NCBI GenBank assembly: GCA_028278645.1
Contig: JANQDZ010000069.1
Location: forward strand, 1-57,817
Origin: Longimicrobiales bacterium
GTDB lineage: Bacteria > Gemmatimonadota > Gemmatimonadetes > Longimicrobiales > Gaopeijiaceae
Reading direction: 5' to 3'
DNA length: 57,817 nt
The notes under the pieces were generated by a model that saw only the letters and a list, made by a program, of their open reading frames with translations, ran no database searches and was not told where the DNA came from. The position numbers and the translations under genes were made by a program. This document shows positions 9,086-24,130 of the stretch, one piece after another; the stretch's first letter is position 1, and every line of letters begins with the position of its first letter.

Positions 9086-9120
9086 AAGGGCATGGACCAG
9101 TTTGGGTCCATGCCCTTTTT
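9086..9120 (+). terminator. Strong intrinsic terminator overlapping a gene start
   Basis: A perfect 13-bp inverted repeat, AAGGGCATGGACC (9086-9098) and GGTCCATGCCCTT (9105-9117), has a six-base loop and a TTTTT run at 9116-9120. It should end transcription of the regulator gene. Both possible start codons of the following pseudopilin gene (9092 and 9110) lie inside the hairpin. Confidence 0.78.
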
Positions 9121-9565
9121 CCTCAATCCGCGACCCACCGACTCCGGCTTCACGCTTCTTGAGCTTGCTGTCGTTTTTTCTCTCATGGCGGTGGGGATCG
9201 CGGTGCTTCTCCCCACCGCTCGGCGACAGCAAGACCGACTCGCCGTGTCAGGGGCGGCGGAGGAGGTAGTTGGCCTTCTCCACCGGACGAGGGCCGAGGC
9301 TGTAGCCCGCGGTGGAGCGGTGCTCTCCCTCGTTTCCGCCTCAGCGTCCATCGCCATTGTATGCAATGAGGACACCCTGACCCGAACCGAGCTCATGGAG
9401 AGATACGGTGTGGATATGGACCTCTCGAGAGATCGGGGAGAAGCCGCGTTGGCATTCGGGCCTCTCGGCCTTGGGCAGGTGGCGAATCAGACCATCAGGC
9501 TTCGAAGGGGAGAGGCGGAGACCAGGCTCATCGTCTCTTCCCTCGGAAGGGTGGTCAGGAAGTGA
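9092..9565 (+). CDS. FimT/GspH-type minor pseudopilin
   Basis: Minor prepilin-like protein, 157 aa from ATG 9092 or 151 aa from ATG 9110. The processing site is SG before FTLLELAVVFSLMAVGI, with Glu at mature position 5. The rest resembles GspH/FimT: PTARRQQDRLAVSGAAEEVVGLLHRTRAEAVARGGAV, the conserved helix after the pilin N-terminus, then a beta-rich end. Neither start has a convincing Shine-Dalgarno sequence and both fall inside a terminator-like hairpin, so the start is uncertain. It begins a run of four minor-pilin-type genes whose products probably prime pilus assembly or form the tip. Confidence 0.82.
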   Translation: MDQFGSMPFFLNPRPTDSGFTLLELAVVFSLMAVGIAVLLPTARRQQDRLAVSGAAEEVVGLLHRTRAEAVARGGAVLSLVSASASIAIVCNEDTLTRTELMERYGVDMDLSRDRGEAALAFGPLGLGQVANQTIRLRRGEAETRLIVSSLGRVVRK

Positions 9566-9936
9566 GGCGGGGATTCTCTATCCTGGAACTCCTAGTTTCC
9601 CTCGTCCTTTTCGAGGTTGGGATTCTGGCCACCGTCGGGATGATCTTCCTGGCACAACAGAACTTCCGCCGGGCCGAGCTCACCCTTAGGGGGGTTTTGG
9701 AAACCAGGTGGGTGGCCGACTCCTTGGTGGGAACCGGAACCTCGGGAGGCGGTAGCGTTTCCCGCCCCTGGGGCACAATCTCGTGGGCTCCTTCCCGGGA
9801 TCCGGTGCCAGGTGTCCTCGTATCGGCCCTGTCCGCCGGCGACGGAGACACGCTCGCATGGACCTTTGCACCCGAAAGGTCTGTGCTTCCGGATCCTTTT
9901 TGGCTGGACTCCAACACGGTCTGGAGGGTCAAATGA
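9562..9936 (+). CDS. PilV/GspI-type minor pseudopilin
   Basis: Minor prepilin of 124 aa starting at a GTG that overlaps the previous stop (GTGA). The leader is very short (MRRG), followed by FSILELLVSLVLFEVGILA with Glu at +5. The hydrophobic helix continues into NFRRAELTLRGVLETRWVADSL, typical of PilV/GspI proteins, which have a compact globular domain. No cysteines are seen. It is coupled to both neighbours by four-base overlaps, so the minor pilins are probably made in fixed proportion. Confidence 0.82.
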   Translation: MRRGFSILELLVSLVLFEVGILATVGMIFLAQQNFRRAELTLRGVLETRWVADSLVGTGTSGGGSVSRPWGTISWAPSRDPVPGVLVSALSAGDGDTLAWTFAPERSVLPDPFWLDSNTVWRVK

Positions 9937-10667
9937 TTCCCCGGGAAAGGGAAGCCGGCTTTTCAGTCGTGGAAACCATCGTAGCCCTCCTTCTACTGGG
10001 ACTCCTGGCGGGTTTGGCCTGGAGCACCCTTTCCCGGCAAAGGCATGTTGGGTTTGACCTGGCTCAGAGGGCTGACGGGCTGGAGACGGTCAGGACGGTA
10101 GCCTGGGTTCTGGGGGAAGAACTCTCGAATGGCCGCCAAGGCCTTGATTGGCAGGTCGCCGGAGGGGACTCCTTAAGCTTGAGGGCCTTCCGCGGGATCG
10201 GGTTGGTAGAAGGGCGAAGCGGATCGCCCCGAACGATGACCGTTTGTTTTCGCGGAATCCGCAGTCCAGCGCCCGAGAAAGACTCGTTGCTCCTTCTTGG
10301 TGGTGACGGGCGATGGAGGGTGGTTGCCTTGGAGGGAAGAAACGCCGACTCGGCAGGCTGCCAGGGGTTGGAGGGATGGTCGAGGGAGGCTTGGACAGTC
10401 TCCCAGATGGGGACGGATGCGGTCCTGGCCCGTCTGTTTGAACGTGGAAGCTATCACCTCTCCGGCGGGGCACTCCGGTATCGAAGGGGTCGAGGCGGGA
10501 GGCAGCCCCTCACACCCGAAGTCATCGAGGACGGGTCCTTTTTGGCTCAGACTGATTTGGGGTGGGGAACTGGTTGGGAGATTACCCTCCGCCGGCGAAC
10601 GAGAAGTCCGGGTCTCTTCCACCCGGACGCTCCAGAACCGCTCTTGTGGCGGGGGACAGTGTGGTAA
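9933..10667 (+). CDS. PilW/GspJ-type minor pseudopilin
   Basis: Minor prepilin of 244 aa. The start is the ATG at 9933, whose ATGA overlaps the preceding stop. It gives the leader MIPREREAG and then FSVVETIVALLLLGLLAGLAW with Glu at +5. The large beta-rich globular domain has two cysteines (TVCFRG and SAGCQG). Size, helix and position between GspI-like and PilX-like genes fit PilW/GspJ. The frame is open further upstream in the neighbouring gene, but only the 9933 start yields a prepilin signal. Confidence 0.82.
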   Translation: MIPREREAGFSVVETIVALLLLGLLAGLAWSTLSRQRHVGFDLAQRADGLETVRTVAWVLGEELSNGRQGLDWQVAGGDSLSLRAFRGIGLVEGRSGSPRTMTVCFRGIRSPAPEKDSLLLLGGDGRWRVVALEGRNADSAGCQGLEGWSREAWTVSQMGTDAVLARLFERGSYHLSGGALRYRRGRGGRQPLTPEVIEDGSFLAQTDLGWGTGWEITLRRRTRSPGLFHPDAPEPLLWRGTVW

Positions 10668-11704
10668 GGGCTGGAGAAGAGGGGATCGTCCTCCCACTAA
10701 TGTTACTCCTGATGATGGCTCTGGCCGCCATCGGGCATGGTGCGCTTAGCCTCTCCCTTCGTGAGCTGCAAGCCACTTGGGCCCTCCGCCATATGGCGCG
10801 GGCCGAGATGGCGGCGAACCTCGGTATCGCCCATGCCTGGAGACTCCCGCCGGATACGGCCAGGGCCAGAACACCGTGGAGTGAAGAGCTCGTTGTTGAG
10901 GGCCGGACAACGACGGGGCTTTTTTACCGAGGGATCCGGCGTTGGATCGATACAGAGTTCTTCCTCCTGGAAGGAGTCGGGAACACTGAGGGGTGGATCG
11001 GAGAACGGAGGGTGGGATGGATCGCCTGGGCCCTCTCTCCTTCAGCGAGGGTCCGGTCCTTCTTTTCGGTAAGCCCAACGGCTGCTGATGAGGCCGTTTC
11101 CAGGCCGGTGTCGGGCTTGGGCGAAGAGCTCTTGGCAGTGCCTGAAGGGTGGCCGCCTGGAGAATGCGCTGCCCTCCGTGGCATCTTGGATTCCCATTCC
11201 GGCGGAGCTGTCTCCCAGGAGGTAGCCCCGGCACGTCTGCCCAGCTCGTCCGGGGGCGTGGCTGGGGCTCAGGCTCCTTCCTTGGGGCTACTCCCTGGGC
11301 CCCTTCTTCTTTCGTTAGCAGAGCGGGTGGACCTGGATCCCTCCCTTTCCCCCCCCACGGGAGTCTCTCGGGGGTGCCCCCCGGGAGACCTGCCGGTATT
11401 CCTCGGTAGTGCCGGAGATGTCCATCTTCGTAAAGGCCGACACTGCGGGCTCTTAGTCGCGGCGGGGAATCTGATACTCAGCGGAAACGCCCGATTCCAG
11501 GGTTTGGCCCTCTTGGGAGGTGACCTTATCCTGGAAAACAGGGCCAATTTTGAGGGTGTTGCGAGGGCCAGGAACAGATTTTTCCAGACCGATAGCGCGT
11601 CTTTTCGGAGGTCAGTTTGTCCTGTTTTTAGAGCCCTCTCAAAGATCACTGCCCTCCATCAACCCGTCCTCGTCAAGGGGAGCCTCCCCGGGCTGTTTCA
11701 TTGA
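10661..11704 (+). CDS. PilX-like minor pilus protein with beta-solenoid-like end
   Basis: Protein of about 347 aa. From GTG 10661 the N-terminus is VVRAGEEG followed by IVLPLMLLLMMALAAIG, then a helix AEMAANLGIAHAWR resembling PilX proteins, which often lack the canonical +5 Glu. The start overlaps the previous gene by seven bases and has GGGGGA just upstream; GTG 10646 is an alternative. The C-terminal third contains short alternating segments such as GDVHLRKGRHCGLLVAAGNL, ILSGNARFQGL and LILENRANFEGV, which look like rungs of a beta-solenoid or bactofilin-like fold. The middle is rich in Pro, Ser and Gly. It is the last of the four minor-pilin genes. Confidence 0.7.
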   Translation: MVRAGEEGIVLPLMLLLMMALAAIGHGALSLSLRELQATWALRHMARAEMAANLGIAHAWRLPPDTARARTPWSEELVVEGRTTTGLFYRGIRRWIDTEFFLLEGVGNTEGWIGERRVGWIAWALSPSARVRSFFSVSPTAADEAVSRPVSGLGEELLAVPEGWPPGECAALRGILDSHSGGAVSQEVAPARLPSSSGGVAGAQAPSLGLLPGPLLLSLAERVDLDPSLSPPTGVSRGCPPGDLPVFLGSAGDVHLRKGRHCGLLVAAGNLILSGNARFQGLALLGGDLILENRANFEGVARARNRFFQTDSASFRRSVCPVFRALSKITALHQPVLVKGSLPGLFH

Positions 11705-12170: not shown

Positions 12171-12206
12171 TGACAAGCCTTGGTTTTGAGTGGTACTCTG
12201 GACCCA
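12171..12206 (+). promoter_or_regulatory. Probable sigma-70 promoter of pilMNOPQ
   Basis: A perfect -35 TTGACA begins around 12171, and about 18 bases later there is TACTCT (near 12195), matching the first two and last bases of the -10 consensus. The transcript would start near 12207, some 45 nt before pilM. The perfect -35 in an otherwise GC-rich region makes this one of the better promoter candidates here. Confidence 0.5.
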
Positions 12207-12252
12207 GAATTCCGGGGGTATCCTCGTCCCCTCCTCTTTGGGTAATCTGAAA

Positions 12253-13284
12253 ATGGGCCTTTTCGGTAAGAAGACCTCGGTGGGGCTCGACATCGGTAGT
12301 GGGTTCGTGAAAATGGTGGAAGTGGACCACTCCGGTGATCAACCCGAGGTATCACGGGTGGCCATTGAACCCCTCCTCCCCGACGCAATTGTTGAGGGAG
12401 AGGTAATGGACCCGGGTTTGGTGGCGGACACCATCAGGAACCTCTTCGAGAGCTTGGCGATCAAGGGTCGGGACGTAATCACAGCCGTGGGTGGCCACGA
12501 TGTGATCATCAAAAAGATCGAGATGGATCGGATGAAAGAGTCCGATGCCAGAGAGGTCATCCGTTGGGAGGCCGAGCAGCACGTCCCGTTCGACATCAAA
12601 AGCGTCGAGCTGGATTTCCAGATTCTGAATCCCCTCGAAGAAGGCCTCCAAATGGAGGTCATCCTCGTCGCAGCCAAAAAAGAGCTGGTCGACAACAAAC
12701 TGGCCCTTCTGGCGGATGCAGGATTGGCGGCATCGGTCATCGATGTGGACGCCTTCGCTCTCCATAACGCTTTCGAACGGAACTACCCTGAGGCCATGGA
12801 GGGAATCGTGGCCTTGGTAAACGTCGGGCACGAAGTCACGAATGTGAACATCCTTGAGGAAGGTGTCCCAATCCTCACCCGTGATATTCCATTCGGCTCC
12901 CGTCGAGTTCGCGAGGACCTGCAGCGGGAGAGGGGACTTACCGCCGAAGCGGCGGAGGATGTGGTGCAGGGTAGGGAAGACATCGAAGACCTTGCCGATT
13001 TCGTCGGGATGAGTGCCGACGAGGTTGCGGTGGGGATCGAACGTGCTTCCGCATTCCTCATGACCCGTCAATCCGGAGAGGGCCTGGGCACCGTCTACCT
13101 TAGCGGTGGCGGCTCTCGCATTCCGGGCATGACCAAAGCTCTTGCCGAACGCATGAATGTGGAGACCCACCAGGTGAACCCCTTTGAGCGGACACCGGTG
13201 AGGCCGGGTGCGGCGGTGAACCTCAATCTGGAGGAAGCGGCTCCCATGCTCCTCCTCCCCCTGGGCCTGGCCCTCAGGGCTTAG
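12253..13284 (+). CDS. pilM: Type IV pilus actin-like ATPase PilM
   Basis: Cytoplasmic actin-fold protein (343 aa) that binds the N-terminal tail of PilN and links the inner-membrane alignment complex to the motor. It shows SVGLDIGSGFVKMVEV (phosphate-1 loop), EAEQHVPFDI, LVNVGHEVTNVNIL and LSGGGSRIPG (adenosine loop), all standard for PilM. ATG 12253 is preferred over an upstream in-frame codon at 12190, because translation then begins MGLFGKKTSVGLDIG like other PilM proteins. It is the first gene of a compact pilMNOPQ operon, separated from the minor pilins by the 548-bp gap, so the operon probably has its own promoter. Confidence 0.94.
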   Translation: MGLFGKKTSVGLDIGSGFVKMVEVDHSGDQPEVSRVAIEPLLPDAIVEGEVMDPGLVADTIRNLFESLAIKGRDVITAVGGHDVIIKKIEMDRMKESDAREVIRWEAEQHVPFDIKSVELDFQILNPLEEGLQMEVILVAAKKELVDNKLALLADAGLAASVIDVDAFALHNAFERNYPEAMEGIVALVNVGHEVTNVNILEEGVPILTRDIPFGSRRVREDLQRERGLTAEAAEDVVQGREDIEDLADFVGMSADEVAVGIERASAFLMTRQSGEGLGTVYLSGGGSRIPGMTKALAERMNVETHQVNPFERTPVRPGAAVNLNLEEAAPMLLLPLGLALRA

Positions 13285-13302
13285 GCCAGAGGTGATCGGA
13301 AC

Positions 13303-13971
13303 TTGATCGAGGTCAATCTACAACCGGGTGGAAAGAAACGGCGTTCTCCAGGGCCAAAGCTCTCCTTTTCCCTCCCTTCCATGGGCGGGCTCGGCCGTGA
13401 CCGCTGGGTTTTGGGGTCAACGGTGGTGGTGGTAGCGGCGGCTGCAGTTTGCGGTTGGTGGTTCACGACCGTGAACAGCAGAACCGCGGAGATTCAGGTC
13501 CAAATCGAGGAGGCCCGGGCCGACTCGGCGCGATACGCCGATCTGATCCAGCAGAACGACGCCCTCATGGCGAGGAGAGACTCCATCGCCCAACGGGTCG
13601 AGATCATTCAAGAGATTGATGGGGACCGCTACATATGGCCCCACATCATGGACGAAGTGGCGAGAGCGCTCCCCGACTACACATGGCTGACCGAAATGCT
13701 GCAGGTCTCCCTGGGGGACGAGCTTCAGTTCCGAATCATCGGAAGAGTCGGAAACACCTTTGCCCTGACCCAGTTCGGCGAAAACCTCGAGGCGTCTCTC
13801 TTTATCAGGAATGTTCAGCTGATTACGACTGAACAGATCGTTGAGGAGATCGGGGAATCGGGCATCAGGCGGGCCGTTTACCAATTCACCATGGAGGCGA
13901 TGTATGAACGCCCCTCGGTGGAGTTCCTCGAGACGGTCCCCCTCTTTGGTTCACCATCTTCGGGCCTCTAG
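13303..13971 (+). CDS. pilN: Type IV pilus assembly protein PilN
   Basis: Bitopic inner-membrane protein of 222 aa. It starts at TTG 13303 with GAGGTGAT upstream. The cytoplasmic tail begins IEVNLQPGGKKR, the equivalent of the INLLP motif that docks on PilM. A longer than usual basic and Pro/Gly-rich stretch leads to the single membrane helix (WVLGSTVVVVAAAAVCGWWF). The periplasmic part starts with a coiled coil (EIQVQIEEARADSARYADL) and ends in a ferredoxin-like domain that would pair with PilO. Confidence 0.9.
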   Translation: MIEVNLQPGGKKRRSPGPKLSFSLPSMGGLGRDRWVLGSTVVVVAAAAVCGWWFTTVNSRTAEIQVQIEEARADSARYADLIQQNDALMARRDSIAQRVEIIQEIDGDRYIWPHIMDEVARALPDYTWLTEMLQVSLGDELQFRIIGRVGNTFALTQFGENLEASLFIRNVQLITTEQIVEEIGESGIRRAVYQFTMEAMYERPSVEFLETVPLFGSPSSGL

Positions 13972-13988
13972 GCTGACCGGGTTGAATC

Positions 13989-14618
13989 ATGGCTCTAATT
14001 CCTAACGAACCGAGACAACGAAACGCCCTCCTTATCGGGCTTCTGGCCGTCGCGTTGTTCTATGCCTTCTACGCCTACTGGTACACGCCTCGGAATACCG
14101 AGATGGAGGACCTCGAGGCACAACTAGGGCAGCTGGACCTGAACAACCAGAGGGCCCAGATCATATCGGCAAGAGGCGGTACGGACCTCCAGGAGAGGCT
14201 GGCTCTCTACGAACGTCATGTCGGGCAGCTGGAAGAGCTGATCCCTGAGCAGGAGGAGTTTTTTGCCCTCCTGAACGAAATCACGGCCGAGAGTCGGAGC
14301 CACGGCGTGGAGATCGTCGGAATCGATCCTGCGGTGGCTGAGCCAGGGGCCTTCTATACGAGAGAGGTCTACGATCTCCAGCTCATTGGGGACTATCACG
14401 ACATCGGGCGGTTCCTGAGCACCATAGCCTCGCTCCCGAGGATCATCACACCGTCTGAACTGGACCTCTCGGTCTTTGACGGTGCGCCAGAGCTGCTCCG
14501 TGCGGACTATGAAGCTCCGCTGACTGCTTCTCTGCGAATCCAGACCTACATCCTGCCCTCTGGAGACTTCGCGCCGGTAGTTGAAGGCGGCGAGGGAGTG
14601 GAGGGAGGCACGGTATGA
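13989..14618 (+). CDS. pilO: Type IV pilus assembly protein PilO
   Basis: Partner of PilN in the inner-membrane alignment complex (209 aa). There is one membrane helix near the N-terminus (ALLIGLLAVALFYAFYAYW), a coiled coil (MEDLEAQLGQLDLNNQRAQI) and a ferredoxin-like periplasmic domain with SHGVEIVGIDP and YDLQLIGDYHDIGRFLSTIASLPRII, the most conserved PilO block. It ends in a Gly/Glu-rich tail. The next gene's ATG overlaps the stop as ATGA. Confidence 0.9.
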   Translation: MALIPNEPRQRNALLIGLLAVALFYAFYAYWYTPRNTEMEDLEAQLGQLDLNNQRAQIISARGGTDLQERLALYERHVGQLEELIPEQEEFFALLNEITAESRSHGVEIVGIDPAVAEPGAFYTREVYDLQLIGDYHDIGRFLSTIASLPRIITPSELDLSVFDGAPELLRADYEAPLTASLRIQTYILPSGDFAPVVEGGEGVEGGTV

Positions 14619-15094
14619 CACGGACCTTGATCGTCTTACTTCTCCTGCTCGGAACGGGCCTTGGGGCTGGTTCGGCTGGGGCGCTTCGAGCTCAAGAGAC
14701 GCCACCCCAGCCGCCCCCGACCCAGCCGAGGCCAGATTCTCTGGACCTGGTGTTTGAGCGGGAGGCCTTCTTTTATCCCCGGTATGAACGGCGGAATCCC
14801 TTCCGTCCTTTGACGGCGGGAGATGAGTACGGGCCGAGGTTCGAAGAACTCGAGCTCGCCGGCATTCTCTTCTCCCCCGACCCTGAGCGCTCGTGGGCCT
14901 TGTTCGGCTTACGAGATGCCCAGGAGGGCGAGGGAGTTGGACCGCAATCCTACAGAGTCCGACGAGGTGACAGCGTGGGCAATGTACGAGTCCTAGAAAT
15001 CCAAGAATCACGCGTGGTCGTCCACGTTGAAGAATTCGGCATGACGGAGCAGCGCATCTTAGAGCTGCCGCGACATGGTCAAGGAGGCTTCTGA
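14615..15094 (+). CDS. pilP: PilP-like periplasmic protein (no lipobox)
   Basis: Small exported protein (159 aa) in the PilP position, between pilO and pilQ. PilP links the PilN/PilO complex to the secretin. The N-terminus is a cleavable-looking signal (LIVLLLLLGTGLGAGSAGALRAQ), then a Pro-rich linker (PPQPPPTQPRP), then a beta domain with RRNPFRPL, LAGILFSPDPERSWALF, YRVRRGDSVGNVRVLEIQ and VVVHVEEFG, resembling the PilP/GspC homology region. Proteobacterial PilP is normally a lipoprotein, but no cysteine is present in this signal, so the protein would be soluble or held by protein contacts. Confidence 0.82.
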   Translation: MTRTLIVLLLLLGTGLGAGSAGALRAQETPPQPPPTQPRPDSLDLVFEREAFFYPRYERRNPFRPLTAGDEYGPRFEELELAGILFSPDPERSWALFGLRDAQEGEGVGPQSYRVRRGDSVGNVRVLEIQESRVVVHVEEFGMTEQRILELPRHGQGGF

Positions 15095-16827
15095 TGCCCT
15101 CGATTCTATCCCTTTTGGTTGGTGTCCTCCTTGGCTCCGGGGGCCCGGTGACCGCGCTGGCGGTCCAACCCGCCCTGGGTCAAACCGAGGTCGTCATATC
15201 CATGGAAGGGCAGGCTGAATTCCGGCACTTCACCATGGAAGGACCAAGCCGGCTGGTGGTTGATCTCCTGGGTGCGGAGCACGCTCTCCCACAAGAGAAC
15301 TTCCTGGATATCGACCGAGGCGGTGTTCGGTCCATCCGCACCAGCCAGTATTCCGACCAGATCGTTCGGTTGGTGATCGAGCTGGATGCGGTGGTCGACT
15401 ACCAGATCCTGGACGGCGACGACGGACTCCGGGTGGTGTTGGTGAATCAGGGCGGTGCATTCGCCCCGTGGGCAACTGAGTCGGTGGCTCCTCAGACCCC
15501 CGTCAACGGCTTGTCCGTAGAGGTAGCCCAACCGGCGCCTGCCGCGCAGGAAGCCGACCGGATCTCGGTGGAATTCTACAACGCCAGTATTCAGGAAGTC
15601 CTCTTCACGTTCGCCGACTTCTCCGGCCGGTCCATTATTCCCGGGGCCGAGGTTGATGCGGTGATCTCGGCCGGGATCCGGGATCAGCCCTGGGACCAGG
15701 CTCTGGAGGAGATCCTGAGGGCCCATGGGTACTCTTCGGTGGAGACCGAATCGGGGATCATCAGGGTCGAGAACCTCTCAACCCTGAAGAACCGGGAAAC
15801 GAATGAGCCCGTGTACACCCGTGCGTATACGGTCAACTATTCCACGGCGGCTGAGATCGAACAGGCGGTCCAGGCTTTTATCACGCCTGAGCGAGGGAAG
15901 GTCTCGGTCAACCCCTCCACCAACACCGTCATCGTCACCGACGTCACTCGGGTTCTGGAGTCGGTTCAGGATCTGATCGCGGAGCTGGACCGGGAAACCC
16001 CCCAAGTCTCTATCTCGGCCAAAATCCTTTTCGTGAACCGCACGGACTTGAACGAGTTCGGTGTGACCTACGACCTGAAAGATTCAGAGGGCAACCAGCT
16101 GAATACGTTGACCCCGGGAGCCATCGATTCGGACGGCGACGGAATCCTGGAGCTGCCCGCAGAACAGGTCGATATCGGTACCGACGTAGTCTCCCTTGGC
16201 GGTAGTTCAATCGCCGCCCTGGGTAACGCAAAAACGAAACTTCCGGCTCCCAGCCTCACCCTCCTCACCAGCCTGGTCGTGGGACGTCATACCCTCATCA
16301 ACTTCATCGAAGCCCTGGAGTCCATGAACATGACGACGGTCGAAGCCGAACCGAGCGTTACGGTCATGGATAACCAGACCGCCCGTCTCGGTGTTGGTGA
16401 GGAGACTCCGATCCGGGTAGTGGAGGCCCAGGCCGGGGCGGGAGGACAGCAAGGGCAATTCCCCACGGCTCAGGTGGAAACGCGTGAGACGGGGATCATC
16501 CTGAATGTCACGCCCCATGTAACCGAGAGCGGGAAGATCACCCTTCAGATCCGGGCTGAAAGGTCGGCGGCGGTTCTGGCCGAGTCCGATGCCGGCTTCA
16601 TCTTCCAACAGCAGTACGCCGAGTCGAGGGTGATTGTGGAAGACGGCGAGACGGTGGCTTTCGGCGCACTCACCGTGGCCGAAACGACGGAAGTCCGGGC
16701 CGGAATCCCTCTCCTCATGGACGTACCTATTATCGGGCGCCTCTTCCGCGTGACCCGGGAGGAGAAGATCCAGCGTGACCTCATCATTCTCGTCACCCCG
16801 ACCGTCGTTCGGGGCGGGCAGAATTAG
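15094..16827 (+). CDS. pilQ: Type IV pilus secretin PilQ
   Basis: Outer-membrane secretin through which the pilus passes (577 aa). Domain order: signal peptide to about residue 29; one AMIN domain (31-118) for peptidoglycan binding; a secretin/TonB N-terminal domain (157-225); an N1/NolW domain (243-300, RAYTVNYSTAAEIEQAV, NTVIVTD); then the secretin barrel (305-575), with VEAEPSVTVMDNQTA, TGIILNVTPHV and VPIIGRLFR followed by RDLIILVTPTVV. It is shorter than proteobacterial PilQ, which often has two or more AMIN domains. Within the secretin region, residues 345-350 (DSDGDG) form a calcium-loop-like motif. The ATG overlaps the pilP stop by one base. Confidence 0.94.
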   Translation: MPSILSLLVGVLLGSGGPVTALAVQPALGQTEVVISMEGQAEFRHFTMEGPSRLVVDLLGAEHALPQENFLDIDRGGVRSIRTSQYSDQIVRLVIELDAVVDYQILDGDDGLRVVLVNQGGAFAPWATESVAPQTPVNGLSVEVAQPAPAAQEADRISVEFYNASIQEVLFTFADFSGRSIIPGAEVDAVISAGIRDQPWDQALEEILRAHGYSSVETESGIIRVENLSTLKNRETNEPVYTRAYTVNYSTAAEIEQAVQAFITPERGKVSVNPSTNTVIVTDVTRVLESVQDLIAELDRETPQVSISAKILFVNRTDLNEFGVTYDLKDSEGNQLNTLTPGAIDSDGDGILELPAEQVDIGTDVVSLGGSSIAALGNAKTKLPAPSLTLLTSLVVGRHTLINFIEALESMNMTTVEAEPSVTVMDNQTARLGVGEETPIRVVEAQAGAGGQQGQFPTAQVETRETGIILNVTPHVTESGKITLQIRAERSAAVLAESDAGFIFQQQYAESRVIVEDGETVAFGALTVAETTEVRAGIPLLMDVPIIGRLFRVTREEKIQRDLIILVTPTVVRGGQN

Positions 16828-16849
16828 AATAGGGCCAGGGAGGAACCAA

Positions 16850-19594
16850 ATGTCTCAAGGCATTCGCAACCGAAGGCGCCTCCCGCGGTTTGTAGGCGGG
16901 ATGGTTGCCCTGGCTGCTCTATGGTCCTGTGACGGCCAAAACGCATTCTCTACGGGTGTCCTCGGCACCGACGGTGCCGCCCCCGAGGTGGAGATCCAGA
17001 ACCCCCGGCAGCCAGCAGCTCGGCCGGTAGGGGATTCGGTGCTGATTACCGCCCACACCTGGGATGACACCGGGGTGGACTCGGTTCTGCTGGCAGGCGT
17101 GTCTTTCCGAGGGGACGTGGATCTGGGGACCGACACCACGGTGCTCCGGTACTTCTCCAAGATGGTTCACTTCCCCGGAGGGGTTCAGGACACTACGGTC
17201 AGCCGTCATCTGATCGCTACACCGGATACAACCCGAGAGTCCTCCGTTCTCTTTGCCATCGCCTACGATTCAAAGGGGAATATCTCTGCGGACACGGTGT
17301 CCCTCACCATCGGAGGCCCCCGCGTCACCTTCCTCACGCTGGAGGACGATCAACAGGTCCAATCCGGCCTGAGCCTCAACCTGCAGGTCGAGGCCGCCGA
17401 TCCTGAAGGGATCCTGGATCTGGCCATCCTCATCGAAGGGGTCTTCGACGCGGAAATCGACGTTCCCTTCAGCACACCTCCGGTGGAGGTGGTGGTCGAC
17501 ACGTCGGTGGTCATTCCCCCCAATATCACCGGCGAGATACAGGTGACTGCCACGGCTCGGAACGGCCTCGCTGTTTCGGGGCAGGACGGCCCGGTGACCC
17601 TTCAGATCGTGGACTTCGAGATCGGGGATGAGACTCCTCCGACCCTGTCCGTGATGACGACGTCCACGCCCCGGCTGGAGCTCGATGATCCTTTGACCGT
17701 GACGGTCACGGGCTCCGACAACATCCAGGGGAGCGGGATCGCCCGGGTAGGTTACACGGTGCGGGCAATCTCACCGAGGAGGGGCGTCACCGTGGTCCAG
17801 ACCGGGGAACAGGCCTTTAATCCGGCCCGGACCGGGAACCTCTCCGCCGAGTTCGACTTCATTCCCTTTAACGTGGACGAGTTGAGCCTCCCGGATACGC
17901 TCACCTTCGAAGTGACCGGCTGGGCCATAGACGCCGACGGAAACTGCGCGGCTGCTGTGGAACCCGGGGATCCGACGTCTTTCCCCTGCGTGGCGTTGGC
18001 CGGTGGCCAGATCGGCGCCGAAGGACGTCCCGGGGTCCCGTTCGACCGGGTAATCGCATCGGGTCGGACGGTCGAGCTCCCCACTGGCGGCGTGATCATG
18101 GACGCCGCGGTGGACACCGTCCGCAAGAACCTGCTCCTCACGAACATGGGCAGGAATCGAGTTGAAGTGTTCCGGCTGGAAACGGAGACGTTCGGAGCAG
18201 CTATCGGAGTCGGATCGGAACCCTGGGGCCTCACCCTGGACCGAAGCGGGGACCAACTCCTGGTCGCCAACTCTGGTGGGACGAACGTATCCGTCGTTGA
18301 TCTGGAGCAAGAGCGAGAGCTCGAACAGCAGCGGTTCTTCGCTCCTGACGCGGTCATCTTCGACCTGGAGCTGCGAGACGGCGACAGTGGTCTTCAGTTC
18401 ATACTGTATCCATTCCCAACACCCGAATCCCCGTCTTTCAGTGACCGGCCTCAGTACATCGCCGTGGACTCTTTCGGGAACTACATCTACTCAACGCGGA
18501 CCACGTCCGTTGGAGATATCGGGACCGCGAGGAAGGCGTACTTCCCCGAGGGCGCTGACCGGTCAGAGGTCAAGCTGTTCGTGGAGCACGGCCACAATGA
18601 GCTCACGCAGGACTTTTGGGCCTTTGCCCACGTTGACAGCATTGGCCTCGGGTTCGAGGAGGTTACTCCGGGCGTGTACTACGCTGGCTTGACCCTTTTC
18701 GACCACGTCCCCGGCTTCCCGGACTCCATCATCTCTGCCACGGCCAACACCTCGGAAATCGATCCGGTGGAGAACGCCTGGGCCAGGCTGGTAGGAAAGG
18801 GTTCCGACGCCTATGTGGATGCGGGAGCCCGATGGAATATTCCTTCTTTCGGATTCTCCGACACGACCTTCGTGACGGCGTCGGGAGATGGCGGCTGGGT
18901 CCTGATCGGTGAGGGAGGCACGACCCCGACGGGTCGGGTCATGATGTACCGAGCTAGTCAGAGGGATACCACAGACCTCTCTTCGACCCTCCGCGTGTGG
19001 GACGAAGTCATCAACGCCGCCGACGAGGTACACGGGGTCGGGCTGAACTACGACGGTACGCTCGGGGTTGCCAGGGGATTGAGTGCCTACTTCTTCGACA
19101 CCGAGCTCCAGCTGAACGGTAGGGTCGAACTGCCTGGGGCCGGAACCGGAACCGGGGCGGCACTCCACCCGCTTCACGCGAACCAGAAAACTCTTGAGAA
19201 CCTGACTGGAGCTTATAACCCGGATACACACCTGGCTTTTGTCGGCACCTCCGACGGTACCATCGATATCATCGATACCTTCAAATTCACGAGGGTCGGC
19301 CAGATTACCCTCAGGGACGTGATAACGGGTCCCCTCAGGGCCATCCTCCCCTTCCCGGAGGACAACGAAGGGCTCTCCTGTCCCACGGTTCCGGTGGCCG
19401 ACAAAGTCGGTAACCCCATCGGGAACGCGGTACAGCTTTATACGGGCGGGGAGTTCACTTTGCCCATCGGGCCTGATGGTATCACCGACGACTCTTGCAT
19501 CGTGGTGAGGCTCTTTGCGATCACCTCCGCGGACGGTGTGGTCGTCGTGCCAGTACGGAAGAGCGAGATCTTGAAGTACCATCCGAATCGATAG
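16850..19594 (+). CDS. Large lipoprotein with Ig-like and beta-propeller regions
   Basis: Predicted 914-aa lipoprotein, last gene of the pilus block. ATG 16850 has a strong GGGAGG upstream. The signal MSQGIRNRRRLPRFVGGM runs into VALAALWSC, giving a lipobox-like LWSC with Cys27 and Asp at +2; the Trp is atypical for a lipobox. About residues 35-370 look like three Ig-type beta domains (repeated DxxGVDSV, EAADPEGILDL and GSDNIQGSGIARV patterns). From about 390 to the end there are propeller-type blades, e.g. KNLLLTNMGRNRVEVF, PWGLTLDRSGDQLLVANSGGTNVSVVDL and HLAFVGTSDGTIDIIDT. I do not recognise a named family. Position after pilQ and the propeller suggest an envelope or tip factor comparable to PilY1, but this is inference. 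A terminator follows. Confidence 0.8.
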   Translation: MSQGIRNRRRLPRFVGGMVALAALWSCDGQNAFSTGVLGTDGAAPEVEIQNPRQPAARPVGDSVLITAHTWDDTGVDSVLLAGVSFRGDVDLGTDTTVLRYFSKMVHFPGGVQDTTVSRHLIATPDTTRESSVLFAIAYDSKGNISADTVSLTIGGPRVTFLTLEDDQQVQSGLSLNLQVEAADPEGILDLAILIEGVFDAEIDVPFSTPPVEVVVDTSVVIPPNITGEIQVTATARNGLAVSGQDGPVTLQIVDFEIGDETPPTLSVMTTSTPRLELDDPLTVTVTGSDNIQGSGIARVGYTVRAISPRRGVTVVQTGEQAFNPARTGNLSAEFDFIPFNVDELSLPDTLTFEVTGWAIDADGNCAAAVEPGDPTSFPCVALAGGQIGAEGRPGVPFDRVIASGRTVELPTGGVIMDAAVDTVRKNLLLTNMGRNRVEVFRLETETFGAAIGVGSEPWGLTLDRSGDQLLVANSGGTNVSVVDLEQERELEQQRFFAPDAVIFDLELRDGDSGLQFILYPFPTPESPSFSDRPQYIAVDSFGNYIYSTRTTSVGDIGTARKAYFPEGADRSEVKLFVEHGHNELTQDFWAFAHVDSIGLGFEEVTPGVYYAGLTLFDHVPGFPDSIISATANTSEIDPVENAWARLVGKGSDAYVDAGARWNIPSFGFSDTTFVTASGDGGWVLIGEGGTTPTGRVMMYRASQRDTTDLSSTLRVWDEVINAADEVHGVGLNYDGTLGVARGLSAYFFDTELQLNGRVELPGAGTGTGAALHPLHANQKTLENLTGAYNPDTHLAFVGTSDGTIDIIDTFKFTRVGQITLRDVITGPLRAILPFPEDNEGLSCPTVPVADKVGNPIGNAVQLYTGGEFTLPIGPDGITDDSCIVVRLFAITSADGVVVVPVRKSEILKYHPNR

Positions 19595-19621
19595 GGGATG
19601 GGGCTGAGCTCCACCCCACAA

Positions 19622-19666
19622 AAAACCGAGACGCCCCCGACCCCTCTGGTCGGGGGCGTTGGTTTT
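19622..19666 (+). terminator. Strong intrinsic terminator closing the pilus block
   Basis: A perfect 12-bp stem, ACGCCCCCGACC (19631-19642) with GGTCGGGGGCGT (19648-19659), has a five-base loop. AAAACC upstream (19622-19627) can pair with GGTTTT downstream (19661-19666), so it may work in both directions. It lies between the lipoprotein gene and aroC. Confidence 0.88.
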
Positions 19667-19671
19667 ATCCT

Positions 19672-19699
19672 TTGACGGACTCTCGACTTTTTCTATGCT
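19672..19699 (+). promoter_or_regulatory. Probable sigma-70 promoter of the aroC operon
   Basis: TTGACG (19672-19677) and TATGCT (19694-19699) are 16 bp apart, just downstream of the terminator and about 100 bp before aroC. It is the first promoter-like element of the long plus-strand housekeeping run. Confidence 0.5.
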
Positions 19700-19800
19700 A
19701 GTAGGGCCGGTTTCGGAGGGATGGGTGCAGAACCTATCAGGAGCCGCCAGACTCGAGCCGGATCAATAGACGAACCCTTCGTTCCCGAACGAGTGTTTTC

Positions 19801-21015
19801 ATGAGCCTTCACAAGATCTCGTTTACCACAGCTGGCGAGTCCCACGGACGGGGGCTTGTGGCTGTTCTGGAAGGACTTCCAGCAGGGCTGGACTTCCAGG
19901 TCCAGCGGGACGTGGACCCCGAACTTCGCCGCAGGCAGCAAGGGCACGGCCGGGGTCGGCGGATGCAAATCGAATCAGACAGGGCCGAGATCATGTCGGG
20001 TGTTCGTCTGGGTGAAACCCTGGGCTCCCCCCTTGCCATGCTCATTTGGAACAAGGACTGGGAGAACTGGCAAAAGGCCATGGCCCATGACCCGCCGGAT
20101 TCTGAGGAGAGTCCGAAAGCTTTGAGGCCCATGTATCTTCCCCGGCCCGGCCACGCCGACCTGGTGGGTATCTTCAAGTACGATCGGCGGGACACGAGGG
20201 ATATCCTGGAGCGGGCCAGCGCCCGGGAGACGGCCGCTCGCGTAGCCTGCGGTGCGGTGGCCAAGCGGTTTCTGGCCGAATTCCAGATCCGGGTGGAAAG
20301 CCATGTCCTCTCTATCGGAGATCACCAAGCTGCGGTTCCGGACTCCTTTCCGGAGGATTTGAACGTATCCGCAGACGCCTCTCCCGTCCGATGTTTGGAT
20401 CCATCCGCCTCCGAGGCCATGGTCCGGGCCATCGATCATGCGAAAGTGGACGGGGACACCCTCGGGGGAGTATTCGAGGTTGTGGCCAGGGGCGTGCCGG
20501 TGGGGTTGGGCAGCCATGTTTCTTGGGACCAGAAGCTCGATGGTCGTCTGGGACAGGCAGTGATGTCGGTCCACGCCGTTAAGGGTGTCGAGGTAGGGTC
20601 GGCGTTCCAGAGCGCTTTTTACCCGGGCTCCAGGGTCCACGACGCCATTGTCCCGGCGCCTGACCGCCCGAGGACCGGGGGGTTGGGGCGTGAGACCAAC
20701 CGGGCCGGAGGGCTGGAGGGGGGTGTTACAACCGGGGAACCCCTCCTGGTGCGGGGGGCGATGAAACCCATCTCCACCCTCAGAAAACCCCTGGCCAGCG
20801 TCGACCTACGGGACGGGCAACCGGCAAACGCGGCCGTCGAACGGAGCGATGTCTGCGCTGTCCCGGCGGCGGCGGTCATCGCTGAAGCCATGGTTGCCTT
20901 GGTCCTGGCGGATGCTTTTCTCGAGAAGTTCGGTGGCGACTCGATCGGCGAGGTCGGGAGGAACTTCGAATCATACCTCGAACAACTCAGGAAAAGGGGC
21001 TACCGAGAACGGTGA
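19801..21015 (+). CDS. aroC: Chorismate synthase
   Basis: Last enzyme of the shikimate pathway; converts 5-enolpyruvylshikimate-3-phosphate to chorismate with reduced FMN as cofactor. 404 aa, normal for the long bacterial type. Signatures: FTTAGESHGRGLVAVLEGLPAG at the start, RRQQGHGRG, RPGHADLVGIFKY, DTRDILERASARETAARVACGA, and near the end TNRAGGLEGGVTTGEP and MKPISTL. ATG 19801 gives the usual N-terminus. Shikimate kinase follows with a four-base overlap, so two aromatic-acid genes are coupled. Confidence 0.96.
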   Translation: MSLHKISFTTAGESHGRGLVAVLEGLPAGLDFQVQRDVDPELRRRQQGHGRGRRMQIESDRAEIMSGVRLGETLGSPLAMLIWNKDWENWQKAMAHDPPDSEESPKALRPMYLPRPGHADLVGIFKYDRRDTRDILERASARETAARVACGAVAKRFLAEFQIRVESHVLSIGDHQAAVPDSFPEDLNVSADASPVRCLDPSASEAMVRAIDHAKVDGDTLGGVFEVVARGVPVGLGSHVSWDQKLDGRLGQAVMSVHAVKGVEVGSAFQSAFYPGSRVHDAIVPAPDRPRTGGLGRETNRAGGLEGGVTTGEPLLVRGAMKPISTLRKPLASVDLRDGQPANAAVERSDVCAVPAAAVIAEAMVALVLADAFLEKFGGDSIGEVGRNFESYLEQLRKRGYRER

Positions 21016-21593
21016 CGGATCCCCGGGGGACCGATCCTGATCCAGCCTTCCAGCGGGTCCTTCTCGTGGGGTTCATGGGGAGTGGGAAGACGGAAGTGGG
21101 TAGAGCTCTCGCAGAAAGGTTGTCCTGGACCTTCCGTGACTTCGATGAGGAGGTTTCCTCCAGGGTGGGTCTTCCCATAATGGAGATCTTCCGCCAGCGT
21201 GGAGAGCCCTTTTTTCGCGCCACCGAGGAGACGGTGGGGAAAGAACTCCTCCTGGAACAGCAGGTGGTACTTGGGTCCGGAGGCGGATGGCCCGCAGTCG
21301 AAGGGCGCATGGAGAACCTACCGGAGGGCACGCTGACCGTATGGTTGAAGGTAACCGCCGGGGAGGCTGTCCGGCGGGCCCTCCAGGAAGGCGATACCCG
21401 ACCACTTCTGGCGGTGTCGGATCCGCAAAACGTGGCCGAAAACCTCCTGGCCCAGAGGGAGCGTTTTTACCGGTTGTCCCACTTGGCCCTTGAAACTGAG
21501 GGCGAAGAGCCAGATCGTTTGGCCGGACAAATCGAGGAACACATAAAAGCGATGGGGCGAAGAACGGACCGCCCCTCACCTCCACATAAGTGA
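21012..21593 (+). CDS. aroK: Shikimate kinase
   Basis: ATP-dependent kinase making shikimate-3-phosphate (193 aa). P-loop LVGFMGSGKTEVGRALAERL, then FRDFDEEV (the shikimate-binding DxD-type motif, here DFD), GEPFFRATEE with the substrate-binding Arg, and LGSGGGWP (Walker-B-like Gly loop). RPLL supplies the lid Arg. The GTG start overlaps the aroC stop (GTGA). The C-terminal tail is longer and more basic than in E. coli AroK. Confidence 0.93.
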   Translation: MTDPRGTDPDPAFQRVLLVGFMGSGKTEVGRALAERLSWTFRDFDEEVSSRVGLPIMEIFRQRGEPFFRATEETVGKELLLEQQVVLGSGGGWPAVEGRMENLPEGTLTVWLKVTAGEAVRRALQEGDTRPLLAVSDPQNVAENLLAQRERFYRLSHLALETEGEEPDRLAGQIEEHIKAMGRRTDRPSPPHK

Positions 21594-24130
21594 TGGGAAT
21601 GGCAAAGGGAACGAAGGGAAAGAGCCTGGTCATCGTCGAGTCCCCGGCGAAGGCACGGACCATTGGGCGCTACCTCGGGAAGGATTTTGAGGTCGCCGCC
21701 TCGGTGGGCCATGTCAGGGACCTTCCGGCGAAGGAACTCGGGGTGGATGTGGAGAATGGATTCGAACCCAAGTATGTGACGATCAGGGGGAAGGGAAAGG
21801 TCCTCCAGGAGTTGAAGAAAAGGGCGAAGGCGGCCGACAGGATCATTCTGGCCACGGACCCCGATCGGGAGGGCGAGGCCATCGCGTACCATGTGGCCGA
21901 TCAGCTCGGCTACGAGAAGGATCCCGAGCGGTTTCAGCGCGTCACGTTCCACGAGATCACGAGAGAAGCCGTCCTTCGGGCCCTGGATGAAGCCGGATCC
22001 CTGGACATGGAGAAGGTGGAGGCCCAGCAGACAAGGCGAATCCTCGACCGCCTCGTGGGATACCAGGTCAGCCCCTTTCTCTGGAAGCCGATCCGACCAG
22101 GCCTTTCGGCCGGGCGGGTACAGACGGTAGCCCTCCGTCTGATCTGTGAGAGGGAAGACGCGATCTCCGCGTTCGAAGCGGAGGAGTACTGGTCCATTGT
22201 GGCCCTCCTCGAGAAGGACGGCCACGACTTTCAGGCGAAGCTTCACCAGATCGACGGGAAAGCCTTTTCGCTGGGAAACGAAGGTGAGGCCCGGGCCGTT
22301 CTCGATGACCTGAAAGGGACCACCTTCCAGGTCTCGGAGGTCAAGCGGCGGGAGCGGCGTAAAAACCCATTCCCGCCGTTCACCACCTCCACCCTCCAGC
22401 AGGAGGCGTCCAAGCGACTCCGGTTCGGTGCCCGGAGGACCATGAGGACGGCTCAGCGCCTCTATGAGGGCGTGGAGCTGGGGACCCGGGGATCGGTGGG
22501 TCTCATCACGTACATGAGAACCGATTCGACCAGAGTGGCGGCCTCGGCCGTTTCCCAGGCGAGGGATTGGATCGAAGGCCAGATGGGGAAGTCCTACCTT
22601 GCACCCTCCCCCAGGCTTTTTGGAGGGAAGCAACAGAAAGGTGCCCAGGAAGCCCACGAGGCGATCCGGCCCACGGATGCTCTGCTGCATCCCGGCGATG
22701 CTCAGGAGTTCCTCGGGGAGGACGAAGCCCAGCTCTACGAGCTGATCTGGCTCCGCTTTATCGCAAGCCAGATGGCGGCGGCGGTGTATGACACCACCAC
22801 TGTAGACTTCGATCAGCGAGGAAAAGGGGAGCAGCGTTACCTATTCAGGGCCTCCGGGTCAGTGGTGAAGTTCCCTGGATTCACCAAGCTGTACCTGGAA
22901 ACCACCGAGAGGGGGGACCACAAGCGGCTGGACGACCTGGAGCCCCTCCCAGTCCTGGCGGAAGGGGATGTCAGCAACCTCCGTGAGCTCCAACCGAATC
23001 AGCACTTCACTCAGCCACCACCGCGCTTCAGTGAGGCGAGCCTGGTACGGGAGTTGGAGAAGCTGGGGATCGGGAGACCCTCTACCTACGCCCAGATCAT
23101 ATCCACGATTCAGGACAGGGGGTACGTGGAGGTTGAGAAGAGACGGTTCTTCCCGACACCCTTGGGCGATACCGTAGCCAAACTCCTCGTCCGGGTATTC
23201 CCGAACATCTTTGATGTGGATTTCACCAGCCGAATGGAGGGGGAGCTCGACAGGGTGGAAGAAGGGGACGTCCGCTGGAGAGCTCTCCTGGAAGGGTTCT
23301 ATGGCCCGTTCCAGAACCAACTGGAGACGGGAAAATCCCACTCCGAAGACATCATCAAGGAGCTACTGGCTGCAGAGGGGGAGACCTGCGAAATCTGCGG
23401 CCGCCCGATGCAGGTTCGGTGGAACAAGTTCGGCCGGTTCCTTGGCTGCTCGGGGTACCCCGAGTGCCAGAGCACCCGGCCCCTGGATGCGCCAGAAGTC
23501 CAGGAGAGGCACCTGGGCCTGGACCCGGAGTCGGGCCTTCCGGTCCTGGCTCGCGTGGGTCCGTATGGACCTTACGTGCAGCTGGGGAACGGGGACGGAA
23601 AAGAGAAACCGAAACGAGTCAGTATCCCCCAGGGCATGACACTTGATGACATGAGCCTGAACTATGGATTGCTGTTGCTTTCTTTGCCTCGCTCCCTGGG
23701 GGAGGATCCCAAGACCGGGAAGGACGTGACGGTGGGAATCGGCCGCTACGGCCCTTATGTCCATCGGGGCGGGACGTACCGTAACCTCAGCTCTCCAGCC
23801 CTGCTCTTCGAGATGGACCTTGATGAGGGTTTGAAACTCCTCGAGACGCAGCCGGGCCGTGAAGTCCTCAAGGAGTTGGGTGCCCACCCGGACAGTGGGA
23901 AAGACCTCACGGTCCTGAACGGGCGGTATGGGCCCTATGTCACCGACGGAAGCCTCAACGCGAGCATCCCCAAGGGAATCGACCCGGCTCAGCTCCTAAT
24001 GGATGAGGCTGTAGAGCTTCTGGAAAAGGCGAAGGCGCGAAAAGGGAAGGGCGGGAAAAAAGGTGCAAAAGGTCGGGGTCGGGGAGGGAAGAAAACGGCA
24101 TCCGCCAAGCGGGGAAAGAAGAAGGAATAG
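21593..24130 (+). CDS. topA: DNA topoisomerase I
   Basis: Type IA topoisomerase that relaxes negative supercoils (about 845 aa). Toprim domain: LVIVESPAKARTIGRYLG and ATDPDREGEAIAYHV. The catalytic Tyr lies in GLITYMRTDSTRV. The core includes GRVQTVALRLI and EAHEAIRPTD. The C-terminal part has one tetracysteine zinc finger (CEICGRPM ... CSGYPEC), three repeats carrying a (R)YGPYV motif, and a Lys/Gly-rich tail that probably aids DNA binding. Three nearly adjacent in-frame starts exist (GTG 21590, ATG 21593, ATG 21599). The middle one overlaps the aroK stop by one base and is chosen here. Confidence 0.95.
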   Translation: MGMAKGTKGKSLVIVESPAKARTIGRYLGKDFEVAASVGHVRDLPAKELGVDVENGFEPKYVTIRGKGKVLQELKKRAKAADRIILATDPDREGEAIAYHVADQLGYEKDPERFQRVTFHEITREAVLRALDEAGSLDMEKVEAQQTRRILDRLVGYQVSPFLWKPIRPGLSAGRVQTVALRLICEREDAISAFEAEEYWSIVALLEKDGHDFQAKLHQIDGKAFSLGNEGEARAVLDDLKGTTFQVSEVKRRERRKNPFPPFTTSTLQQEASKRLRFGARRTMRTAQRLYEGVELGTRGSVGLITYMRTDSTRVAASAVSQARDWIEGQMGKSYLAPSPRLFGGKQQKGAQEAHEAIRPTDALLHPGDAQEFLGEDEAQLYELIWLRFIASQMAAAVYDTTTVDFDQRGKGEQRYLFRASGSVVKFPGFTKLYLETTERGDHKRLDDLEPLPVLAEGDVSNLRELQPNQHFTQPPPRFSEASLVRELEKLGIGRPSTYAQIISTIQDRGYVEVEKRRFFPTPLGDTVAKLLVRVFPNIFDVDFTSRMEGELDRVEEGDVRWRALLEGFYGPFQNQLETGKSHSEDIIKELLAAEGETCEICGRPMQVRWNKFGRFLGCSGYPECQSTRPLDAPEVQERHLGLDPESGLPVLARVGPYGPYVQLGNGDGKEKPKRVSIPQGMTLDDMSLNYGLLLLSLPRSLGEDPKTGKDVTVGIGRYGPYVHRGGTYRNLSSPALLFEMDLDEGLKLLETQPGREVLKELGAHPDSGKDLTVLNGRYGPYVTDGSLNASIPKGIDPAQLLMDEAVELLEKAKARKGKGGKKGAKGRGRGGKKTASAKRGKKKE

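Follow-up and report, generated by a model that had tools for sequence, protein, structure and literature searches.

The window, by which is meant the whole stretch of 57,817 nucleotides that was analysed, contains a block of type IV pilus genes followed on the same strand by a gene for a predicted lipoprotein with Ig-like and propeller-type domains (Table 1). The identities of PilM (NCBIfam match at 6.5e-68) and PilQ (2.1e-64, with AMIN and Secretin domains found) are firm, while pilN, pilO and pilP were named by their position and the conserved gene order. Prepilin-like genes are found in the same region, upstream of pilM, with GspH and N_methyl matches; the last of them was assigned from its position and N-terminus only. 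The lipoprotein gene, for its part, comes after pilQ.

Table 1. Features of the pilus region and of the lipoprotein gene that follows pilQ (positions in the window)
Feature	Position	Strand	Basis or remarks
Prepilin-like genes before pilM	9092..11704	+	GspH/FimT-like, then PilV-, PilW- and PilX-like by order
pilM, pilN, pilO, pilP, pilQ	12190..16827	+	Same strand as the lipoprotein gene and upstream of it
Ig/propeller lipoprotein gene (914 aa)	16850..19594	+	Open frame with ribosome site; orthologues linked to pilQ throughout the class
Predicted signal peptide with lipobox LWSC	16850..16930	+	Cys27, then DGQNAF
About three Ig-like domains	16982..17960	+	Residues about 45-155, 157-258 and 264-370; borders approximate
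Two YVTN-type blades	18095..18319	+	Residues about 416-490; motif VGSEPWGL...VANSGGTN, invariant residues
Remainder of conserved C-terminal domain	18320..19591	+	Blades inferred only; conserved across the class
Intrinsic terminator, end of pilus operon	19630..19670	+	Stem-loop and T-run; terminator-like on the opposite strand too

The open frame encodes 914 residues and begins directly after pilQ, both as originally predicted. Between the stop of pilQ (15094-16827) at 16827 and the ATG at 16850 there is a gap of 22 bp, which contains the ribosome-site-like sequence AGGGAGGA. A longer frame could start at GTG 16775; the ATG is preferred because the longer frame would overlap with pilQ and extend the protein by 25 residues ahead of the signal. 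The terminator proposed to close the operon was also found, as a stem-loop of 13 pairs at 19630-19660 (z = -5.9 vs shuffles). A promoter-like site lies at 19672, before aroC, with a 9/12 match that is not above chance expectation. Since a strong stem-loop with a T-run and this promoter-like site follow it, the pilM-N-O-P-Q unit naturally ends with the lipoprotein gene.

The N-terminus of the product is a hydrophobic signal whose final residues are LWSC, the last being Cys27. A lipobox-like cysteine was found in every examined family member with an intact 5' end, and the lipobox is retained in the most distant orthologues, giving this part of the original prediction firmer support than had been claimed for it. 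With an N-terminal signal and a lipobox cysteine, the window protein is a predicted bacterial lipoprotein. In E. coli, an Asp at position +2 keeps a lipoprotein at the inner membrane. By this rule, which is that of E. coli, the lipid anchor could keep the window protein at the inner membrane instead of the outer.

The Ig-like repeats proposed to follow the signal are borne out by two matches. The Pfam family Big_7 was found at residues 45-97, above its curated cut-off, and at residues about 155-253 a bacterial Ig domain of solved structure was matched by the family profile. Among 23 family members, 15 were found to contain Big_7 (E 0.01). The window protein can therefore be counted among those predicted to carry Big/Ig-like domains. 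The number of such domains differs among relatives, with extra tandem copies in three loci (L045, L048 and L052). RGD triplets in the repeats were considered as an adhesion motif and rejected, as they belong to a recurring RGD..LGT stretch of the repeat.

Propeller-type blades had been claimed for residues 390-914. Two blades at residues about 416-490 uphold this in part, while no blade repeat was found in the remaining ~420 residues. The proposed comparison with YVTN propellers was positive: residues 416-490 match the propeller 1l0q, with E 2.2e-9 when the single sequence is used and 4.4e-23 with the family profile, and profile matches of the blade region extend to 5c2v and 3bws. The closest solved sequence to these residues, 1l0q, is a Methanosarcina surface-layer YVTN propeller. 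It is an archaeal surface protein whose several blades are nearly identical, whereas in the window protein, which has a lipid anchor, only two blades can be recognised. The remainder of the C-terminal domain contains the conserved motifs FSDRP, DTT, GEG and NxDG. When residues 416-490 were used to build a blade model, nothing in this remainder scored above shuffled controls, and hhalign among the guessed blades gave no match beyond their mutual overlap. AlphaFold, run on a five-sequence alignment, reached a mean pLDDT of 30 for the full length and 35 for the C-terminal domain. Judged from sequence, a complete propeller in the window protein is likely on this partial evidence; its extension over the whole of residues 390-914 is only plausible, because no blade repeat rose above the shuffles and the pLDDT was 30-35. 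A scan of viral contigs found no relatives of the protein.

Further genomic analysis examined how widely the gene and its position are conserved. Matches to the window protein are contained in 28 of the 39 nearest genomes, and the main copy adjoins pilQ in 23 of the 28 (window excluded); in two genomes (G015 and G038) the lipoprotein gene is interrupted by a contig break. Two GenBank assemblies show the same gene order as the window. A profile search of 298 genomes sampled from the phylum recovered the C-terminal domain in 129. In all 20 genomes chosen from families f1, f4, f5, f6 and f10, pilQ lies immediately before the gene, and aroC-aroK-topA follows in nearly all. In the about 48 genomes of families f1-f6 and f10 whose neighbourhoods were read, all main copies occupy one slot, pilMNOPQ-[gene]-aroC-aroK-topA. 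The survey of gene neighbourhoods after pilQ that had been suggested therefore shows a linkage that holds across the class, and the refuting outcome named with it, a gene unlinked to pilQ in related genomes, did not arise.

The slot can also be filled differently. In several piliated genomes aroC comes directly after pilQ, and in others shorter Ig-like genes occupy the slot (L119:8206-8685 in G181, L083:351-1829 in G011 and L123:7974-8525 in G277). No propeller domain was detected in these three shorter genes, which are possibly reduced or ancestral versions. Given these alternatives, the gene is best described as an accessory in a fixed slot. The order pilMNOPQ(-slot gene)-aroC-aroK-topA (12190-24130 in the window) spans nearly the whole class. 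In Proteobacteria the corresponding order is pilMNOPQ-aroK-aroB, which the neighbourhood recalls; by this analogy it may be very old. Literature searches found no description of the slot gene. The gene is real, conserved and, it appears, undescribed, in a poorly studied phylum, and its constituent parts are of already known kinds.

Linkage to pilQ alone is weak evidence for a role in the pilus, because aroC, aroK and topA, which have no pilus function, lie in the same block. Co-occurrence with pilM was therefore considered, a convincing pilM being one with a best E not above 1e-15, which left 36 of 298 genomes without one. The domain was found in 128 of 262 genomes with pilM and in 1 of 36 without (Fisher p 1e-8, without phylogenetic correction). 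In the sole domain carrier without pilM (G215), pilQ adjoins the gene, so that the missing pilM is taken as an assembly gap. As a separate observation, the lack of a convincing pilM in about 36 of 298 genomes suggests several losses of the pilus within the phylum. Moreover, pairwise tree distances at 32 loci, with AroC and TopA removed, showed that the domain covaries with PilQ (partial r 0.50), PilN (0.35) and PilM (0.30), with a permutation p of 0.001 for each. The PilN-PilQ partial distance correlation was 0.48, close to that of the domain with PilQ. The co-occurrence and the covariation, both correlative, agree with a functional connection to the pilus, and especially to PilQ. The original prediction of an envelope factor linked to the pilus is well supported here, as the pilQ linkage is class-wide, the gene is absent where pilus genes are absent, and it covaries with PilQ.

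A second copy in the window's genome (G000), at C39:191727-193799, has 37% identity to the window protein. This paralogue lacks the first Ig region, and CDGDTLYD begins its sequence after the signal. In 6 of 6 readable cases (G000, G001, G017, G019, G029 and G129), a further gene starts about 25-100 bp or so beyond the end of the paralogue. Its product has a signal peptide, is about 200-236 residues long and shows the alternating pattern expected of a small outer-membrane barrel. No Pfam match was found for this partner, and 'barrel' is therefore a reading from its signal peptide, size and strand pattern. In G000, the two-gene unit of paralogue and 236-aa predicted barrel lies at C39:190896-193799 (L059:6894-9896). 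A lipoprotein with a CDGxNLF start was found directly after pilQ in G019, extending up to the contig end; since it is present besides the paralogue, this genome holds both copies.

We place at about even chances the reading that the window protein serves the type IVa pilus machine as an accessory lipoprotein of the outer membrane, acting at PilQ. Its architecture would resemble that of Leptospira Lp49. Lipidation of Cys27 would tether the N-terminus to the outer membrane, one to several Ig-like domains would form a stalk, and the C-terminal propeller-type domain would contact the PilQ secretin or the pilus in transit. The PilQ channel might in this way be stabilised or gated, or be given an extra contact near its exit. 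This reading is supported by the slot linkage, the co-occurrence with pilM, the covariation with PilQ, the kept lipobox and the pairing of the paralogue with a barrel. Against it stand the many piliated genomes without the gene, the weakness of the linkage argument, the restriction of demonstrable blades to two, the barrel without a Pfam match, and the alternative of anchoring at the inner membrane. We infer all that goes beyond a predicted lipoprotein tied to the pilus.

A comparable way of working is known from BamB, a propeller lipoprotein acting on the outer-membrane barrel BamA (PMC3506653). The likeness is one of way of working only: unlike the window protein, BamB has neither an Ig stalk nor a pilus linkage, and no BamB-type family was among the Pfam and NCBIfam matches of the window protein or the Pfam matches of its relatives. 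In a more far-reaching and tentative form, the protein could belong, as a subunit not yet described, to the exit complex of the type IVa pilus in Gemmatimonadota. Its propeller, lipid-anchored through an Ig stalk whose length can be adjusted, would dock on PilQ, with the paralogue serving another outer-membrane barrel. If this were true, 'propeller lipoprotein plus outer-membrane channel' would be a reusable module.

Rather doubtful is the alternative of a surface-displayed adhesin or sensor that has only the operon in common with the pilus, co-expressed with pili for attachment and making no contact with PilQ. Such a protein would be lipid-anchored and end in a binding domain borne on the variable Ig stalk. 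It draws on the strongly varying number of Ig units among relatives, which is common in adhesins, and on the accessory distribution of the slot gene. The layout of an Ig-like N-terminus and a C-terminal propeller is also that of Leptospira Lp49 (PDB 3bws), an envelope protein with an N-terminal Ig-like fold and a C-terminal seven-bladed propeller. The propeller profile matches Lp49 at E 3.4e-6, with about one blade covered; no pilus linkage is known for Lp49, whose Ig part is shorter than the variable stalk of the window protein and whose C-terminal domain is smaller. A biofilm adhesin of like architecture, with a propeller and Ig-like repeats, exists as well (PMC12153261). However, a class-wide linkage to pilQ and a covariation with PilQ beyond the species background would be unexpected for a free adhesin.

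Less likely still would be a periplasmic, pilotin-like or alignment factor that aids PilQ multimerisation or fixes PilQ in the envelope, outside the pilus itself. The position directly 3' of pilQ, the predicted lipoprotein nature and the best covariation being with PilQ are in keeping with such a factor, yet the type IV pilotins known so far are small lipoproteins of the TPR type, and the gene is missing in about half of the pilM genomes.

The original prediction had gone further and suggested that the protein fills the role of PilY1, which as a functional analogue would prime assembly with minor pilins and sit at the pilus tip. The absence of a PilY1-like gene noted for the window holds for the whole of its genome, where no PilY1 was found. 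Across 395 genomes of the phylum, a PF05567 search that recovered the Aeromonas PilY1 as positive control gave 2 above the cut-off, G322 and G233. For the former, a Pfam search with the protein gave confirmation; the latter is the weaker case, because the open frame taken for it (L149) was not confirmed by Pfam. The PilY1 gene of G322 lies at L148:5967-8972, with no obvious minor pilin genes adjacent. PilY1.3-related homologues have also been placed in Gemmatimonadota (PMC13190605).

The window protein itself is not a PilY1, in agreement with the claim that it lacks PilY1 sequence features. No PF05567 match was found in it or in 23 relatives, in a search that recovers the Aeromonas and G322 PilY1, and neither the calcium motif Dx(D/N)xDGxxD nor vWFA/MIDAS (DxSxS) occurs in any of 23 family members. 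A profile comparison with real PilY1 gave a sole match of 47 residues at 32% probability, which was taken as chance. The PilY1/PilC tip proteins (PF05567) share with the window protein a propeller-type C-terminal domain and a type IVa pilus gene context. They have a type I signal peptide (PMC7541494) and, in many members, a vWFA domain, and are encoded after the minor pilins, whereas the window protein has a lipobox, Ig repeats and no calcium site and is encoded after pilQ. Despite the propeller-type domain, the prepilin-like genes in a region without a PilY1 gene and the rarity of PilY1 in the phylum, a PilY1 analogue is the most improbable of these alternatives, as the conserved lipid anchor ill suits a pilus tip, among genomes with pilM a PilY1 mostly goes undetected and the slot gene, too, is absent from about half, G322 carries both a PilY1 and a slot gene adjoining pilQ, and the partner of the paralogue is a predicted barrel and not a pilin. 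That the slot gene replaces PilY1 is thus weakly supported; some functional overlap with PilY1 is conceivable.

The paralogue-barrel pair offers an independent handle on the function of the domain, and the slot gene is a concrete pilus accessory open to experiment. Type IV pili have been studied chiefly in Proteobacteria and Myxococcota. In the present class of mostly uncultured bacteria, an uncharacterised pilQ-linked lipoprotein is present and PilY1 almost never is. The rarity of PilY1 in a phylum with this lipoprotein suggests that PilY1 is dispensable in some lineages.
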